Shown here: piece after piece, positions 1 to 13,381 of the stretch
Layout: the number at the start of each line of letters is the position of its first letter
Numbering within the stretch: the stretch's first letter is position 1
Assembly (NCBI GenBank): GCA_016926755.1
Contig: JAFGNZ010000260.1
Span: 1-32,200 of the forward strand
Source of the DNA: Myxococcaceae bacterium
Lineage (GTDB): Bacteria > Myxococcota > Myxococcia > Myxococcales > Myxococcaceae
DNA length: 32,200 nucleotides
Reading direction: 5' to 3'
Program-made: the position numbers and the translations under genes
The notes under the pieces: generated by a model
Databases searched by the model: none
What the model was told of the DNA's origin: nothing
What the model saw: the letters and a program-made list of their open reading frames with translations, nothing else

Positions 1-1176
1 CTCGTGATGGACTGGGTGGAGGGAGTGCCGCTGTATGACCAGGCACGGCAGAGCAATCCCTCCTCCCAGCAGGTGCTCCAGTGGCTGGCCCAGCTCGCGC
101 GTGCGCTCCAGGCCGTGCATGCCCAGGGCTGCATCCACCGGGATGTCAAAGGTGACAACGTGCTGGTGCGCCACTCCGACAGCCGTGCCCTGCTCACCGA
201 CTTCGGCTCAGGCCGCTACCCGGACGCTGCCACGCTCACTCCGGACATCCTGCCTCCGGGCAACCCGGCCTACCGCTCCCCGGAGGCCTGCCTCTTCGAG
301 CTCCAGCACTTCCGTGAACCCACGGCTCGCTACTGCGCACAGCCGGCCGATGACCTCTACGCGCTGGGTGTCACCGCCTATCGGCTCGTGACGGGCCAGT
401 ACCCCGAGCTGGGGGAACCTCTCCAGGATGAGGCCGGCCTCTGGCGCCTGGAGGGCCTCGCCTCCCCTGCTCCGCTCTTGCACAACCCGCGCATCACGCC
501 GCGGCTCGATGCGTTGATTCTTCGCATGCTCTCGGTGCGCCCCGAGCAGCGTGGCACCGCGGCGGAGTTGGCCAAGGCGCTGGAGCAGGCCGCACAGCTC
601 ACCCATCCCGAGAGCACCCGTTCGCTCTTCGCCCAGGAGCTGCGGCCCTCGGGCAGCCCAGCCAAGGTGTCCTCTCGTACTCCGGACTCCACCGAGCGTG
701 ACAGCCCCCCAGCACGCGCCCGCCCTTGGGGGCGGCAGCTCGCGACGGCGGCAGCGCTCCTGGCGCTCGGGGCTTGGGTCTGGTGGAGCATTCCCAAGAA
801 GTTCCCGGAGCAGCCCACTGTCGTCATCCACGAGGCGGGACGGGCCCGCCTGGAGGACGGGGGGACCTCAGGGCTCGGCGATGAGGCGGCGACCGCCTCC
901 ACGCTGGCCTCCCCCGTTCCCTCCGTGCCAGGAGTGCGCGCCGAGGAGACGCTCCCCGAACCCTTGCCGGGCCAGGCGCGACCCGACGCGAAAGGACGCT
1001 GCCCTCACCCACGGCAGGTCCCCCTTGGCGGTGGGTGTTGGATCAAGAGCTCGTTCAATCGCGAGGAGTGCGAGCTGCTCAAGCCCATCGGCGGGTACAT
1101 GTTCAAGGGCACCTGCTACATGCCCGTGATCCTCCCCGGCCGCCATCCCACCTCCGATCCCGTACGCAAACCGTAG
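1..1176 (+). CDS. Ser/Thr protein kinase, membrane-anchored (5' end outside window)
   Basis: The reading frame is open to the left window edge, so the ATP-binding lobe is missing; the GTG at 4 and ATG at 7 are internal codons, not a credible start. Counting from the GTG at 4, the catalytic loop HRDVKGDN lies at residues 45-52, the metal-binding DFG at 66-68, and the SPE of the activation segment at 92-94, so the visible lobe looks catalytically intact. One membrane helix follows at about 245-262. The last 128 residues should be periplasmic or extracellular and carry four cysteines (333, 345, 356, 371), suggesting a small disulfide-bonded domain. The family phosphorylates Ser/Thr on partner proteins; no substrate can be inferred. 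It is convergent with the NACHT gene across a 217-nt gap in which I see no gene. Confidence 0.9.
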   Translation, partial: LVMDWVEGVPLYDQARQSNPSSQQVLQWLAQLARALQAVHAQGCIHRDVKGDNVLVRHSDSRALLTDFGSGRYPDAATLTPDILPPGNPAYRSPEACLFELQHFREPTARYCAQPADDLYALGVTAYRLVTGQYPELGEPLQDEAGLWRLEGLASPAPLLHNPRITPRLDALILRMLSVRPEQRGTAAELAKALEQAAQLTHPESTRSLFAQELRPSGSPAKVSSRTPDSTERDSPPARARPWGRQLATAAALLALGAWVWWSIPKKFPEQPTVVIHEAGRARLEDGGTSGLGDEAATASTLASPVPSVPGVRAEETLPEPLPGQARPDAKGRCPHPRQVPLGGGCWIKSSFNREECELLKPIGGYMFKGTCYMPVILPGRHPTSDPVRKP

Positions 1177-1393: not shown

Positions 1394-4300
1394 TCAGGCA
1401 GAGGCGATGGCCCAGAGGGCGTTGAGGGCCGCGTCCCGCTCGGCTGCATCGGACGAGGAGGTCATGCGCACGAGCGGCTCAATGGCTTCTTCGGCCTTGA
1501 GCGAACCCAGGGACGAGGCTGCGCGCTCGCGGACTCCCTGATCAGGATCGTTCAGAAGACTGATCAGACACGACTTGGATTCAGGAGACTGCCAGCGCTT
1601 AAGCCCATGGGCCACCTGTTGACGGACGGCCACGTCACTGTCTTTGCTGGTGGCAAGGAGGACGGGAAGCACCTCTTTTTCTTGGTCGCTAGACAGGTAG
1701 GCGATGGCATTCCGTCGCACTTCCACATCTGGGCTCTGGGTGAGGTGAATGAGGGCCCGAATACCCTCTGGATGTCCCTTGAGCAAGACGGCAACCATCA
1801 ACTTGGTACTTGGATTGGATACCTGGAGTAGCCTAAGCGCCAGGTTCATTTCATCTGCCTGTGGAGAGCCCTGCAGCAATAAATACTCCGACGAAGTCAA
1901 CTCCTGTTTCGCGCAGGCGAGCAACAGTTGCCGCAAGGTCATATCGCGCGTCGACAGAAAGATCCGTAGCAACCTCAAGAACGCGCTGGATAACTGGTCT
2001 TGCTCGGGGGCGAGAAGTGCACTGTCACTGCCTGCCGACACTTCTGAGGTTTCCTTGGCCGCACTCAGCACCTCGGAGAGCACTTGGAGCACTTGGAGTA
2101 AGGGGTTCTCGGATCCTTTCCAGCTTGTAATTAACTTCCCGGCAAAGCCTGCTCCCGCTGGAGTCCTGCCAAGGCCGGGAACGATAACCATTGCGAAATT
2201 AGTCGCGAAATCGCCTTGCTGTTCCCACGAGCGCATAATCTCCAAAAGTCGCTTTGGACGAAGCACAAGCAGCGCGGAAGCAGCACTGGCCTTGACCTCT
2301 GTATCATGCTCCGACAGCAACTCCTCTAGTCTCTCGCTGGCGGCAGCAAGGCGCATGGCTTCAACGGCGGCAGCCGCTGCTGCTCGAACCTGGGCGACGT
2401 TGTCGTCCAGCGCAGAGATGATGACAGATGCAGCGGCTGGAACCTTCAACCTGCCCAGATGAAAAATCGCCTGTGCTCGCACCCTGGGTTGGTCGCTCCC
2501 CGCCAGTCGGAGAAGCGGCTGGGCAAGCCGGCCTGAGAAATCCGACAAGCGCACATCGTTGAAGGAGGCCTCGCTGATGGATGGAGGCATTGTGCAGAGC
2601 CACTCGCTGAACTGCTCCGCGAGCCTGTCCTGCAAGGCAGCGGGGAGGGTGTCTCCCGCTTCCGTCGCGAACAGGACCGCGAGAGGGATCTGCTTGCGCA
2701 ACACCTGGGTGATATAGGCTCGGCGCCCGCGCTCCTGGTGATTCAGGGTGTCCTGAATGAAGCGGCGGGCCCCCTCCGCGCGCTTCTGCACGAGCGCCAT
2801 GTAGCCAACGCCCAGCCGAAGGATCTCCTCCCAGCGGGACTGAAAGAGGCGAGCCCTCCCCTCCTCGAAGAACTGCTCGGCCGCGTGGAGCCCCATGGCG
2901 GCAAAGAACTCCTGGAAGGTGAGGTGCAGGAAGCCCCACCTCCCCGCGCCGCGCTCTAGGAGGATCTGGACGTCCGCTCCTGCCTTCTTCAAGAACTCGC
3001 GAGCGGAGCGGCTCGCCGTCTCGGGAGCCGTGCCCTCACGCTCCTGGATGGCGCTCGTCAGGACCTCCACGATGAAGCTCTCCGGAGCGACACCTGTCGG
3101 CCACTTTCGGTGCATCTCCAGCGCGAGCCGTCCGAGGATGGGGACCGCCTCTTCCTCGTAGCGAAGCTGCTCTTCCTCCGGCCCTCCCGCGACGATTCTC
3201 CGGGCCTGTCCCCAGGTCTCGCAGAGGGTCCGCGCGAAGATCTCATACGCCTGGACCCGATGGCGCGGCAGCTGCCCCTCCGCGCGGTGGATGAGCGCGA
3301 GCGAAGAGAGGATGAAGGGGTTGCGAGACAACTCGTGAAGCCGCTGGTTGGCGAAGAGCGCCTCCAGGAGCTGGGTGGCGCTCCGGTCCGCCGTCACATC
3401 ATCCGGGCTCCCTTCCTCCCAGGCCTTGTAGGCCCGCTGGAAGGAGTGGACGTAGCGCCGCACCTGCTCATCCTCGAAGGGGCCCAGCGTGACTTCGGCG
3501 GCGCCGGGCAGGTCCAGCCCCACGTAACCGACCTGCCGCGCCGAGGCGATGAAGCGGTTGGCGGGGTACTGGATCGCGAAGGACTCCAGCCACCGCATCA
3601 CGCCCTCCCGGGCTTCGCTATGGACTTCATCCAGGCCGTCCAGGAGCACCAGGCATCGCCCCTGGCGCAGCATTTGGTCGAGGAACTCCCTCACCCCCGC
3701 CTCATCCTCATCCACATTGCGCTCACGGAAGTAGCGCGCCATCACGTCGACGACAGCGGCGGCCTCGCCCAGCGTGCTCCGGAGCTCCGCGAGCCGCCCG
3801 ACACTGATGAGGAGCGGCAGCAGGTGGAGCGCCGTCCCGAGCACCGCGTGCGTGGTGAGCGGGCCCCTGGCGGCCAGCAGCGCCAGCCACTTCAGCAGGG
3901 TGGTCTTCCCTGAGCCAGGATCCCCCAGGACGATGAGGACCTTGTACTGCTGGAGCGCCTGCGGAAAGGGCAGAGCCTTGGGAAGGGAGATGCCACCCGC
4001 ATGCAGCCCAAGGTCCACCAGCAGCTCCGGCGACATCTGGGCGAGCGGCTCGGTACCCGGGGCAGGGAGCTTGCGAACGTCGACCTTCGGGACCACGAAG
4101 ACATCGAAGATGTCGAGGCTGGGGGGCTCCTTCTTCTGCAGCCGGAAGCCGACGTAGCGCAGGCGCCGCACCGCTGAGCTCTCCAGATAGCCGCGGAACT
4201 TCGCCCCGTACCTCTCTGGCCCGCTCTCGCGGAGCGTGCTCGGAGCCTGCGCGGCCAGCGCCGGGAAGATCGACGCCGTCAGGCCGTCACCCTCCAGCTC

Positions 4301-4819
4301 CACCAGCGGCGAGAGGTGCCGCCGGTCGGCATCGGAGAGAGAGAGAAAGATTTCGGGCGACACCGCGAGGGTGTCTGCCGGCGTGGCTCGCTGGAGCCGC
4401 TCGCAAGTCCTCCGCACCTCTCCGCGGAACCGCTCCACGTCATCAAACTCAGGGCGCACGGCCGCATGGACCGCCAGACACGCCGTCAGATCGAGATCGA
4501 CCAGCAGCCGCTCCCGGAGGAGCCGGGCCGCCTGGAAGGCGCGCTGTGCCAGCGCCGGCCCTTCCGCTCCCTCGAAGGACATGAGCGCGCTCATGTCAGG
4601 AGCCGAGACGACCTCCCTGGCCCCCCAACCCGTGGCAATGGCCTGGAGGCTGGCCACATAGCGGGCTCGAAGCGCAAGGGCTTCGCGCTCCGTCAGGCTC
4701 CTGTTCGGGGTCGCAACCCTGCCAACCTGCACGACAGCCAAGACAGCGGGGGGTCCCTCGTCGCTCGTCTGCCGGTCTCCAGACAGGGCCGGTGTTGGCT
4801 CGGTTGGCACGTCACTCAT
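1394..4819 (-). CDS. Cyclase-like / NACHT NTPase / HEAT-repeat STAND protein
   Basis: A 1141-residue multidomain protein. Residues about 25-190 look like a degenerate class III nucleotide-cyclase homology domain: the beta-alpha order and the phrases around LAVHAAVRPEFDD (115-127) and ERLQRATPADTLAVSPEIF (140-158) fit, but the first metal-binding Asp position reads VVQVG, so catalysis is doubtful. Residues about 200-250 resemble the linker that often precedes NACHT in NACHT-HEAT proteins. The NACHT NTPase has Walker A GDPGSGKTT (299-307), Walker B LVLLDGLDEV (390-399) and a sensor-like FIASARQ (423-429). The C-terminal half, from about 700 to the end, is PBS-lyase/HEAT-type alpha-helical repeats, a typical ligand-sensing region of STAND proteins. 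The ATG overlaps the stop of the upstream AlbA_2 gene by 4 nt (ATGA), so the two are translationally coupled. Bacterial NACHT proteins include anti-phage proteins; defence is my inference, and signalling or development is the alternative. Confidence 0.85.
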   Translation of the reverse strand: MSDVPTEPTPALSGDRQTSDEGPPAVLAVVQVGRVATPNRSLTEREALALRARYVASLQAIATGWGAREVVSAPDMSALMSFEGAEGPALAQRAFQAARLLRERLLVDLDLTACLAVHAAVRPEFDDVERFRGEVRRTCERLQRATPADTLAVSPEIFLSLSDADRRHLSPLVELEGDGLTASIFPALAAQAPSTLRESGPERYGAKFRGYLESSAVRRLRYVGFRLQKKEPPSLDIFDVFVVPKVDVRKLPAPGTEPLAQMSPELLVDLGLHAGGISLPKALPFPQALQQYKVLIVLGDPGSGKTTLLKWLALLAARGPLTTHAVLGTALHLLPLLISVGRLAELRSTLGEAAAVVDVMARYFRERNVDEDEAGVREFLDQMLRQGRCLVLLDGLDEVHSEAREGVMRWLESFAIQYPANRFIASARQVGYVGLDLPGAAEVTLGPFEDEQVRRYVHSFQRAYKAWEEGSPDDVTADRSATQLLEALFANQRLHELSRNPFILSSLALIHRAEGQLPRHRVQAYEIFARTLCETWGQARRIVAGGPEEEQLRYEEEAVPILGRLALEMHRKWPTGVAPESFIVEVLTSAIQEREGTAPETASRSAREFLKKAGADVQILLERGAGRWGFLHLTFQEFFAAMGLHAAEQFFEEGRARLFQSRWEEILRLGVGYMALVQKRAEGARRFIQDTLNHQERGRRAYITQVLRKQIPLAVLFATEAGDTLPAALQDRLAEQFSEWLCTMPPSISEASFNDVRLSDFSGRLAQPLLRLAGSDQPRVRAQAIFHLGRLKVPAAASVIISALDDNVAQVRAAAAAAVEAMRLAAASERLEELLSEHDTEVKASAASALLVLRPKRLLEIMRSWEQQGDFATNFAMVIVPGLGRTPAGAGFAGKLITSWKGSENPLLQVLQVLSEVLSAAKETSEVSAGSDSALLAPEQDQLSSAFLRLLRIFLSTRDMTLRQLLLACAKQELTSSEYLLLQGSPQADEMNLALRLLQVSNPSTKLMVAVLLKGHPEGIRALIHLTQSPDVEVRRNAIAYLSSDQEKEVLPVLLATSKDSDVAVRQQVAHGLKRWQSPESKSCLISLLNDPDQGVRERAASSLGSLKAEEAIEPLVRMTSSSDAAERDAALNALWAIASA

Positions 4820-5991
4820 GCCCCCGCGCTCCGTGTCGTCCAGAGGATCAGCTTGAAGTGCCCTCCGATGACCTCAATCGAGGGCTCCCGGAAGCCGAGT
4901 TCCTTCATCCGGCGGATCATCTCCGGGACACCGAACCCCAGGCTCTCACTGCGCCGGGCCTTGTTCAGCACCGAGGCGAGCACCGGGTTGCGTTTCTGGC
5001 TGATGCCCCCCACGCGGATGTTCTCCAGCGTGAGCTGGTTCAACAGATCGCCCGGGTTGATCACCTCAATCCGGTCATCGAATACGAGGAGCCGCGTCTG
5101 CGAGGCGATGCGGTAGTCACGGTGGAGCACGGCGTTCGTGATGGCCTCGCGCACCACGTCGAGAGGGAGGCCTCCCTCGATCCGCACCAGCCCCTCGACG
5201 CGCGAAGGAGCCGCGACGTTGCGCTGGATGAAGGCGCTCGCCGCGTCGAGTTGATCGAGGACGCGCCCCTCGATCTCCTGCTTGTCCAGGAACGTGCGAG
5301 AGACATCGGTCCCCGGGATGCGCACGGCGGAGATACGGGCGTCTACGAGCCAGCGCGTGGGCTCACGCCCGAACATCAGCACCCCCGTCACGGTGGGCAC
5401 GCCCGTCCGATCGACACACTTGAGGGATCCCAGCAACGGAGTGATGTGCTGCTCCGAGGCCCGCCCCGGATATGCAGCGGCGAGGAAGGCACGCACGGCG
5501 TCCCGGTCGAGATCATCCAGCGTCGCGCCCGCGACCGGCTGCTCGTCGAAGTGGTAGTCCGTGGACTGAATCAGCTTGACCAGATCCTCGCGGCGAGCCT
5601 GGCGCGAGCGGTTGCCATCCCGGATGTAATAGATGCTCGCGGCCCGGTGTGGCCTGCTCGGGCTGAAGGGGACCTCCACCACGAGGATGGGCGTGCCGCG
5701 GACCTCTCGCTTCACCACGTTGCACAGGAGGGGTGGTTCGATGGTGTCCTGGCAGAGCTGAGTGACCTGGCGCATCAGCTCATCGGCCTGCTCCATCGTG
5801 CCCACGCCCGTGGGCGTCCCGTCGTCCTCGACGCCGAGGAGAAGATGGCCCCCACGCGTATTGGCCAGGGCCGTGATGGCCTTGGCCAGGTCCGATCTGT
5901 CCGCCTTGTAGTTGCTCTTGCTGACCCCCTTGAACTCGGTCACCGAGTCCTCTCCCAACCGCAGGGTCTGTTCCAGGGTCTCTTCGTTCAT
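4816..5991 (-). CDS. Schlafen-type AlbA_2 / HATPase_c_4 protein
   Basis: A 391-residue protein of the RecG-like/Schlafen AlbA_2 group. The N-terminal AlbA_2 domain (about 10-130) shows GEDSVTEFKG (13-22) and the hallmark LANTRGGHLLLGVEDDG (42-58). The C-terminal half is an ATPase fold of the HATPase_c_4 type, with an N-box-like REAITNAVLHRDY (281-293), a DDRIEVINPG strand (305-314) and a glycine turn SLGFGVPE (350-357). Such proteins are annotated as putative transcriptional regulators or nucleic-acid-binding ATPases, and Schlafen-domain proteins occur in defence contexts. I chose the ATG at 5991 because MNEETLEQTLRLGED matches the usual N-terminus. An in-frame TTG at 6012 would add seven residues; neither has a strong ribosome-binding site. 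It lies 99 nt downstream of glmM on the same strand and overlaps the NACHT gene by 4 nt. Confidence 0.87.
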   Translation of the reverse strand: MNEETLEQTLRLGEDSVTEFKGVSKSNYKADRSDLAKAITALANTRGGHLLLGVEDDGTPTGVGTMEQADELMRQVTQLCQDTIEPPLLCNVVKREVRGTPILVVEVPFSPSRPHRAASIYYIRDGNRSRQARREDLVKLIQSTDYHFDEQPVAGATLDDLDRDAVRAFLAAAYPGRASEQHITPLLGSLKCVDRTGVPTVTGVLMFGREPTRWLVDARISAVRIPGTDVSRTFLDKQEIEGRVLDQLDAASAFIQRNVAAPSRVEGLVRIEGGLPLDVVREAITNAVLHRDYRIASQTRLLVFDDRIEVINPGDLLNQLTLENIRVGGISQKRNPVLASVLNKARRSESLGFGVPEMIRRMKELGFREPSIEVIGGHFKLILWTTRSAGA

Positions 5992-6090
5992 GGCGTCCGG
6001 TGCTTGGGGCAAACGGTACGGGGGAACGACTTATCACCTTTCCAGCCCCCCGCTTCTCCCCATCCGGCCCCCTGAGAGAACAAGAGCCCC

Positions 6091-7482
6091 TCAGCTCAGG
6101 GCGCGGGAGAGCGCCTCGGCGATCTCCTTCGCGTACGCCTCGTTGCGCGCCGCGTCCTCGCCCTCGATCAGGATGCGCACCTTGGGCTCGGTGCCCGAGA
6201 AGCGCACCAGCACCCGGCCCTCGCTGCCCAGCCGCTGCTCCACGCCCTGGATGACCTTCATCACCTCGGGCAGCTCGCCCAGCTCGCGCCGCTCCTTCAC
6301 CACCACGTTCAGCAGCGTCTGCGGCACCGGCTCGAAGATGGAGGCCAGCTCGCTCAGCGGCTTGCCCTCCCGGCACATCACCGCCAGCAGCTGCAGCGCC
6401 GCCAGCGTCCCATCCCCCGTGGTGGAGTGATCCAGGAAGAGCAGGTGCCCGCTCTGCTCGCCACCCAGGTTGTAGCCGTGCTTGCGCATCTCCTCGACGA
6501 CGTAGCGATCCCCCACGCGCGTGCGGGCCACCTTCACGCCCCAGCGCGCCACCGCGCGCTCCAGGCCGATGTTGCTCATCACCGTGGCCACCAGCGTCTT
6601 CTTCTTCAGCTCCTCGCGCGCCACCAGGTTGCCCGTGCAGATGGCCATGATGGCGTCCCCGTCCACCACCTTGCCCTTCTCGTCCACCACGATCAGCCGG
6701 TCCGCGTCCCCGTCCAGCGCCAGGCCCAGGTGCGCCCCGTGCTCCACCACCGCGCGCGCCAGCCCCTCCGGGTGCAGCGCGCCGCACTTCTCGTTGATGT
6801 TCTTGCCGTCCGGCGACACGCCCAGCGAGATCACCTTGGCGCCCAGCTCCTCCAGCACCGAGGGCGCCGTCTTGTAGGCCGCGCCGTTGGCGCAGTCCAC
6901 GACGAGGGTCATCCCCTCCAGCGTCAGCTCGCGCGGGAACGTGGCCTTGAGGAAGACGATGTAGCGGCCCCGCGCGTCCTCCAGGCGGATCGCCCGGCCG
7001 ATGTTGTCCGCCGTGGGCCGGATCGCGTCCATCGCCCCCGTGGACAGCAGCTCCTCCAGCTTCGCCTCCGTCTCATCCGGCAGCTTGAAGCCGTCGCGCC
7101 AGAAGAACTTGATGCCGTTGTCCTGGTACGGGTTGTGCGAAGCGGAGATCACCGCGCCCGCATCCGCGCGCATGGAGGTGGTGAGGTTGGAGATGGCCGG
7201 CGTGGGCAGCGGGCCCGTCAGCCACACGTCCACGCCCATGGAGGTGATGCCCGCCGCGAGCGCCTGCTCCAGCATGTACCCGGACAGCCGCGTGTCCTTG
7301 CCGATGATCACCCGGTGCCGGTGCGGCCCGTTGCGGATCAGGTACGCGAGCGCTCGGCCGAGCTGCATCGCCACCTCGACCGTCATCGGGAAGACGTTCG
7401 CCACGCCACGGACGCCGTCCGTCCCGAACAGCCGCTGCGAGGGCCGCTCCTCCTTGGGAGACAGATTCATCTTGTAAGCCAT
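6091..7482 (-). CDS. glmM: Phosphoglucosamine mutase GlmM
   Basis: Cytosolic enzyme that interconverts glucosamine-6-phosphate and glucosamine-1-phosphate for UDP-GlcNAc, hence peptidoglycan and LPS synthesis. It is 463 residues, slightly longer than the usual 445-455 because of an N-terminal extension before [10 protein letters not shown]. All key motifs are intact: phosphoserine loop ISASHNP (112-118, Ser115 being the phosphorylated residue), metal loop DGDADR (257-262), sugar-binding GEQSGH (341-346) and phosphate-binding RFSGTEP (427-433). The ATG at 7482 has an AGGTGAGAGG-like ribosome-binding site just upstream. It is downstream of folP on the same strand, the ftsH-folP-glmM order known from enterobacteria. 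The cdaA and ybbR genes that often sit between folP and glmM in other delta-proteobacteria and Firmicutes are absent. Confidence 0.97.
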
Positions 7483-12929: not shown

Positions 12930-13133
12930 ATGGCAGGCACCGACAAGCGCAAGCAATCGCTGTACTTCCCCGAAGAGATGTTGAAGGAAATCCAGGAGGA
13001 GGCGAACCGACAGGACCGCTCCCTGTCTTGGGTCGTGCAGCAGGCGTGGAAGATCGCCCGCGAGCGCATCAAGGCCTTCCCCGCCGTCAACGACGTCACC
13101 GGCGATGAACGCCAGGATCCCCGTGAGGAGTAG
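12930..13133 (+). CDS. Small ribbon-helix-helix-like protein, first tandem copy
   Basis: A 67-residue protein starting at ATG 12930, with GGAG seven nt upstream; the open frame runs further upstream, but the paralogue next door starts at the same aligned position. The core KQSLYFPEEMLKEIQEEA (residues 8-25) followed by RQDRSLSWVVQQAWKIAR (27-44) has the form of a ribbon-helix-helix/CopG-type domain: one short strand, then two helices. Such proteins usually dimerise and bind operator DNA, but no target can be inferred here. The C-terminus is charged and variable. It is nine residues from the next gene's start in operon arrangement, and the two cores differ only at scattered conservative sites. 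A myxobacterial small-protein family of unknown function is the likely home. Confidence 0.82.
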   Translation: MAGTDKRKQSLYFPEEMLKEIQEEANRQDRSLSWVVQQAWKIARERIKAFPAVNDVTGDERQDPREE

Positions 13134-13141
13134 GAACGCGC

Positions 13142-13381
13142 ATGTCGTCCACTGATCATCGTAAGCAAAGTCTCTACTTCCCCGAGGATATGCTCGAGGA
13201 GATCCAGCGGGAGGCGACGCGGCAGGATCGCTCGCTCTCCTGGATCGTCCAGCAGGCATGGAAGGTGGCCCGCGGGGATATCCGCAAGATGCCCTCGGTC
13301 AATGACGTGCTCACCCCGTCGCCCAAGCCGGCGGCGGTGGCGGCGCCGCCGCCCATGCCCGACCCTGAGCCCAAGCCCTGA
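13142..13381 (+). CDS. Small ribbon-helix-helix-like protein, second tandem copy
   Basis: A 79-residue paralogue of the preceding gene, eight nt downstream of it. GAGGAGTAGGA, which overlaps the first gene's stop, serves as ribosome-binding site for the ATG at 13142, so translation is probably coupled. The core KQSLYFPEDMLEEIQREA (residues 8-25) and RQDRSLSWIVQQAWKVAR (27-44) is near identical to copy one, while the tail is a proline/alanine-rich segment (PSPKPAAVAAPPPMPDPEPKP region, about 58-79) absent from copy one. As for its partner, a DNA-binding dimer is the likely fold. Co-expression of two close paralogues suggests heterodimers or distinct tails for partner binding; that is inference. 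Confidence 0.83.
   Translation: MSSTDHRKQSLYFPEDMLEEIQREATRQDRSLSWIVQQAWKVARGDIRKMPSVNDVLTPSPKPAAVAAPPPMPDPEPKP

Follow-up and report, generated by a model that had tools for sequence, protein, structure and literature searches.

Bacterial NACHT (bNACHT) proteins consist of a C-terminal sensor, a NACHT switch and an N-terminal effector (PMC12169576). SAMD9 and SAMD9L carry AlbA_2, SIR2-like, STAND NTPase, TPR and OB domains, in this order, on one polypeptide chain (PMC5445408). Schlafen RNases with a minimal histidine kinase were described in a survey as auxiliary effectors in BREX (PMC12839542), and the "Bacterial Schlafens" preprint cited in that survey appears, as far as the citation tells, to concern the same AlbA_2 and HATPase_c_4 family. 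No description of a Schlafen–NACHT gene pair was found in the searchable literature, although this preprint may contain one, and a full-text search combining AlbA_2 and NACHT returned nothing related.

The window, i.e., the whole stretch of 32,200 nucleotides analyzed here, is the entire contig C360 of the 9.59-Mb genome of a Myxococcaceae bacterium, a soil-dwelling predatory bacterium. Two genes on its minus strand form the pair. The Schlafen gene (5991..4816) encodes 391 aa from an ATG codon, with an alternative TTG start at 6012 that would add 7 aa, and the NACHT (STAND) gene (4819..1394) encodes a 1141-aa protein comprising a pseudo-cyclase fold, a NACHT domain, a helical region and HEAT repeats. 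The genes are coupled by an ATGA stop/start overlap of 4 bp on the minus strand (4816–4819). The position of the locus (1394–5991) and the overlap reported in the original prediction proved exact on recheck. The AlbA_2/HATPase_c_4 protein that it described was recovered with Pfam SLFN_AlbA_2 (5.7e-21) and HATPase_c_4 (2e-19), and its NACHT–HEAT STAND protein with Pfam NACHT (4.6e-15) and HEAT_2 (1.5e-31). The neighbor named there as glmM (6091..7482, minus strand) matched TIGR01455. The kinase named as the other neighbor is also present, as a convergent Ser/Thr kinase gene (1..1176, plus strand), but it is only partial here, because the contig edge cuts off its 5′ end and the N-terminus begins contig C355 (locus L090). 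Elsewhere in the window (12930–13381), two neighboring small genes (67 and 79 aa) with similar products and near-identical ribbon-helix-helix-like starts were noted, and these are conserved in congeners.

The search covered 96 genomes from the family and, for Myxococcota as a whole, 195. The NACHT protein was detected above background in seven of the 195, namely the window genome, four Corallococcus genomes (L064, L065, L067 and L068) and two genomes of the genus g12 (L056 and L057), and the pair was intact in all seven. The Schlafen gene was always immediately upstream of the NACHT gene, with an overlap of 4 bp in the window genome and Corallococcus and of 8 bp in g12. Pairwise identities of the Schlafen proteins correlated with those of the NACHT proteins (residues 26–735) with r = 0.996, the best value among all 5040 label permutations. 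Because the pair was retained in 7/7 carriers and the two proteins diverged in a coupled manner, these data support the view that the two genes are one conserved module. The original prediction had named separate carriage of the two genes as evidence against it, and no such case was observed in the close family. The nearest NACHT gene outside Myxococcota, in a Planctomycetota genome (L066:9893-14164, 44% identity), lacks an accompanying Schlafen gene but also lacks the pseudo-cyclase fold, and adjoins a Septu-like PtuA/PtuB pair. This single case, which is no proof, suggests that the pseudo-cyclase may be the part that couples the NACHT protein to the Schlafen protein.

In each of the three genera the pair occupies a different, unrelated site, and pair-less relatives show the matching empty site, which points to independent acquisition three times or more (or to repeated losses). 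At the site of the window, glmM is followed by pdxJ in six congeners, one of which has an extra gene between them, and the alignment of the window with these genomes ends at the glmM stop codon. This synteny agrees with the predicted insertion next to glmM and rules out that the pair is part of a glmM operon. In the window genome, pdxJ is located on contig C355, after an outer-membrane-like gene and the missing kinase start, so the insertion here comprises the pair, the kinase gene and the outer-membrane-like gene. This rest of the insertion, at the beginning of contig C355 (L090:1-1241), consists of the N-terminal part of the kinase and an OMP_b-brl-like gene (237 aa), with pdxJ following. 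The kinase is an accessory neighbor; a role for it as a third component was rejected, since neither of the other two genera has it next to the pair. The Corallococcus insert of ~4.24 kb contains only the pair and ~100 bp upstream; at the empty site, relatives (e.g., L091, L093, L094 and L097) show roughly a dozen bases. In g12, a 4.74-kb pair-only block corresponds to 77 bp in genome G054. The pair does not form a fixed housekeeping locus, a setting that the original prediction had named as a second kind of contrary evidence. No integrase or transposase was found with the unit. Carriage of the pair by phages or plasmids was also rejected: no relative was found in IMG/VR and phage records, and plasmids gave only general NACHT matches (<30% identity among the matches listed) and SLFN matches of ~33%.

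The NACHT NTPase core (3428..3949, minus strand; residues ~291–464, Pfam NACHT 294–461) scored above the Pfam cut-off. The predicted Walker A (GDPGSGKTT, residues 299–307) and Walker B (LLDGLDE, residues 392–398) motifs are both present, intact and unchanged in the seven homologues, which identifies the protein as a STAND/NACHT NTPase. Residues 1–200 had no Pfam match, and a profile of residues 1–240 found no cyclase among PDB sequences. When residues 22–227 of the AlphaFold2 (AF2) model (4139..4756, minus strand) were compared with known structures, class III cyclases were the best 32 matches (Z 12–15), the first being CyaB (Z 15.1). The full-length model had a mean pLDDT of 53.5, with values of ~65–78 across most of residues 23–165 and low confidence past ~165, and the AF2 models of both proteins are weak except in the cyclase and HEAT parts; Foldseek matches of the full-length model were dominated by HEAT proteins. 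Active class III cyclases possess two metal-binding Asp residues and a catalytic Asn/Arg pair. At the positions expected for the catalytic motifs of the family, strand 1 (VLAVVQV and its counterparts) contains no Asp in any of the seven homologues, the next hairpin contains no conserved Asp, and the NxAxR motif bearing the catalytic Asn/Arg is replaced by xxCExL in 7/7. The cyclase-fold domain is thus very probably catalytically dead and would not be a signal-producing enzyme, and active cyclic-nucleotide signaling by the NACHT protein was rejected on the same grounds. The "cyclase-like" label of the original prediction accordingly holds for the predicted fold, but very probably not for an enzyme.

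The C-terminal HEAT module (1394..2614, minus strand; residues 736–1141, Pfam HEAT_2 3.5e-33) is hypervariable. The four Corallococcus alleles, which share one site, were 87–93% identical in the Schlafen protein, 87–92% in the NACHT segment and 80–88% in the whole NACHT core, and only 31–36% identical in amino acid sequence from residue 736 onward. At the DNA level, identity was mostly 80–98% across the Schlafen gene and the NACHT gene outside the HEAT block, dropped to ~40–45% over the ~1-kb HEAT block, and was 88–96% in the outer flanking DNA to either side, where the value past the end of the NACHT gene comes from the three assemblies reaching that far. The dN/dS ratio in the block was 0.26–0.42 where calculable, and synonymous sites were near saturation. 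Since the synonymous sites are affected as well, the block is better explained by its replacement as a unit or by long-maintained alleles than by point-by-point positive selection, which was unsupported. A general tendency of HEAT repeats to evolve rapidly was ruled out by an unrelated HEAT-repeat protein that is 93–97% identical in the same four strains. Borrowing of the module from a different HEAT protein within the family was also rejected, because no donor was found at E<=1e-6 in the 96 genomes and all matches were within the pair itself. In g12, the NACHT tails end in an ECF sigma-70-like module (L056:7149-7721, minus strand, and L057:11146-11715, plus strand; TIGR02937 1e-8 and 1e-7, Sigma70_r2 2e-6), which may serve to contact or imitate an RNA polymerase partner and indicates that different recognition modules can hold the C-terminal position. 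The best reading of these sequences is that the HEAT module is a fast-diversifying, exchangeable, putative sensor.

The Schlafen-type protein has an N-terminal AlbA_2 (SLFN) nuclease-like domain and a C-terminal HATPase_c_4 (GHKL) domain, whose N-box REAITNAVLHRDY is conserved in the seven homologues; no wHTH was found C-terminal to HATPase_c_4. PDB profile matches were Schlafen 5, 8(13), 11 and 14, and 3LMM. Residues E14, E19 and D57 are invariant in the seven homologues, and their spacing (5, then 38) is that of E205, E210 and D248 of SLFN13 when aligned to 5yd0. Mutation of these SLFN13 residues abolishes or diminishes tRNA cleavage (PMC5862951). Foldseek searches with the AF2 model retrieved SLFN13, SLFN14 and the SAMD9 tRNase domain, but this low-confidence model (pLDDT 41.6) is too poor for fold conclusions alone. 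The Schlafen-type protein is therefore a predicted RNase, on the basis of its conserved residues. Its sequence also hints at kinship to the N-terminal regions of some Argonaute systems.

The original prediction suggested a check for nearness to defense genes; the myxobacterial copies sit among ordinary genes, and none is in a defense island. Its statement that no described system has this pair held in the PADLOC check, in which no PADLOC or NCBIfam model scored the pair as a known system; there was no full-length model match, and such matches as were obtained were partial ones to NTPase, HEAT or pAgo regions. Scores of 1e-14 to 1e-12 were recorded for the middle region and HATPase domain of the Schlafen-type protein against the PADLOC pAgo and PNTD1-PNTD2 models. 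Schlafen–HATPase relatives (~33% identity) are often located in defense loci. On IncC plasmids from both E. coli and Klebsiella (L129:2377-6164), a Schlafen–HATPase gene overlaps a TrlF-family ATPase gene in a type I RM operon, and in Azotobacter a relative lies within a BREX locus. At five further loci from myxobacterial genomes (L110, L112, L113, L115 and L122), a Schlafen–HATPase gene immediately precedes a ParA/MinD-like ATPase gene with an ATGA-type overlap, and these genes apparently represent a second recurrent Schlafen–NTPase pair. With its TrlF, BREX and ParA-like partners, this subfamily recurs as a partner of different NTPases. As a whole, the earlier interpretation is supported in part: it stands as regards the conserved module, the insertion at glmM and the lack of a known-system model, and its defense role is a presumed one.

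We consider it moderately probable that the pair is a two-gene, mobile, NLR-like immune switch that employs a Schlafen RNase as an effector in trans and aborts infection. Strict pairing, mobility, the arms-race-like divergence of the HEAT block, the conserved nuclease residues, the defense loci of the Schlafen–HATPase relatives and the Septu-like neighbor of the Planctomycetota NACHT gene speak for this reading. The ordinary surroundings of the myxobacterial copies, the dN/dS values with near-saturated synonymous sites, the lack of matches in IMG/VR or phage records and the weakness of the AF2 models speak against it. Beyond the domain identities, the steps of such a mechanism are what we infer. 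The HEAT tail would recognize an infection-related protein, presumably of phage origin, and the NACHT core would oligomerize in an ATP-dependent manner. Oligomerization would cluster the N-terminal pseudo-cyclase domains, which would act as an adaptor and, by a putative trans-activation, switch on the co-translated Schlafen protein. The AlbA_2 domain, gated by the GHKL ATPase domain, would then cleave tRNA or rRNA, translation would stop and the infection would abort. On this reading the pair would belong within STAND/NLR-type defense and would not constitute a new category, its defense role being a presumed one. A more elaborate version, which we regard as rather unlikely, is that the pair amounts to a SAMD9-like bacterial NLR divided over two genes: the dead cyclase would be the adaptor to a Schlafen RNase acting in trans, and the sensor would be block-swapped between strains, so that one locus would provide polymorphic recognition, immune and/or self/non-self, in social bacteria.

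The hypervariability of the HEAT module among close Corallococcus strains at one site could also reflect allorecognition or kin discrimination, in which the module would tell a self from a non-self partner or delivered protein and a mismatch would lead to growth arrest by the Schlafen protein. The sporadic presence of the pair would suit such a function, and fungal NACHT-repeat HET incompatibility, as quoted in PMC7159879, offers a precedent. However, no gene for an exported toxin, a cell-surface receptor or an immunity protein adjoins the pair in a conserved manner, most social relatives lack the pair, and the SLFN–HATPase relatives point to defense loci. We therefore think this analogy quite improbable as an explanation.

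The effector assignment is what separates the immune switch from a further alternative, in which the Schlafen-type protein would bind nucleic acids and regulate the NACHT gene or others, and the pair would be a signaling or regulatory unit. Annotations of AlbA_2/HATPase_c_4 proteins as RecG-like or as transcriptional regulators are widespread, the pseudo-cyclase is a signaling-type domain, and the g12 tail has its ECF-sigma-like module, all of which are consistent with regulation. The invariance of the catalytic triad argues against it, as does the lack of a detectable wHTH in the Schlafen-type protein, and a STAND protein with no effector would be left without an output domain; a purely regulatory pair seems to us distinctly unlikely. 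Both families are abundant in myxobacteria (the window genome alone has nine NACHT matches), and an accessory NACHT signaling protein might thus adjoin an unrelated Schlafen gene by chance. Retention of the pair in every carrier, its occurrence at three sites, the coupled divergence and the conserved overlap strongly disfavor this explanation, which has hardly any probability left: the pairing is beyond chance.

NLR-type NTPases and Schlafen RNases, both of them families with antiviral members in humans, are united here in a compact, transferable bacterial operon. The putative sensor, probably replaced as a block between near-identical neighbors, makes matched alleles from nature available for a search for the trigger. 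The pair is also a direct test case of whether a cyclase domain that has lost catalysis can link an NLR to an effector encoded by another gene.

Compared with known systems, the NACHT protein shares the tripartite STAND order and intact NACHT motifs with bNACHT proteins (e.g., bNACHT25; PMC12169576) and AVAST/Avs. In those systems, however, the effector, such as a PD-(D/E)XK nuclease, is fused in cis at the N-terminus, whereas the pair has a pseudo-cyclase at that position and its presumed effector is the separate Schlafen protein. The Schlafen–HATPase(–wHTH) RNases of BREX and RM loci (PMC12839542) belong to the same AlbA_2 and HATPase_c_4 family, but they are partnered with BREX, TrlF or ParA-like NTPases, while the present protein lacks a wHTH, has a NACHT–HEAT partner and resides in a stand-alone two-gene insert. 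Fungal NACHT HET proteins likewise carry, besides NACHT, repeats that differ greatly from strain to strain; they have a different effector and come from a different kingdom, and the likeness is an analogy only. SAMD9 and SAMD9L similarly couple an AlbA_2/Schlafen-type nuclease fold to a STAND NTPase with helical repeats, a likeness to which the Foldseek link adds weakly. Pfam gave no SIR2, TPR or OB match in the pair, which places it outside the SAMD9 family. One polypeptide in SAMD9 corresponds to two here, an Apaf1-like NTPase to NACHT, and TPR/OB to HEAT, and the GHKL domain and the pseudo-cyclase are additional in the pair. The resemblance to SAMD9 is probably one of convergent architecture, and it is the closest architectural parallel to the Schlafen–NACHT pair.
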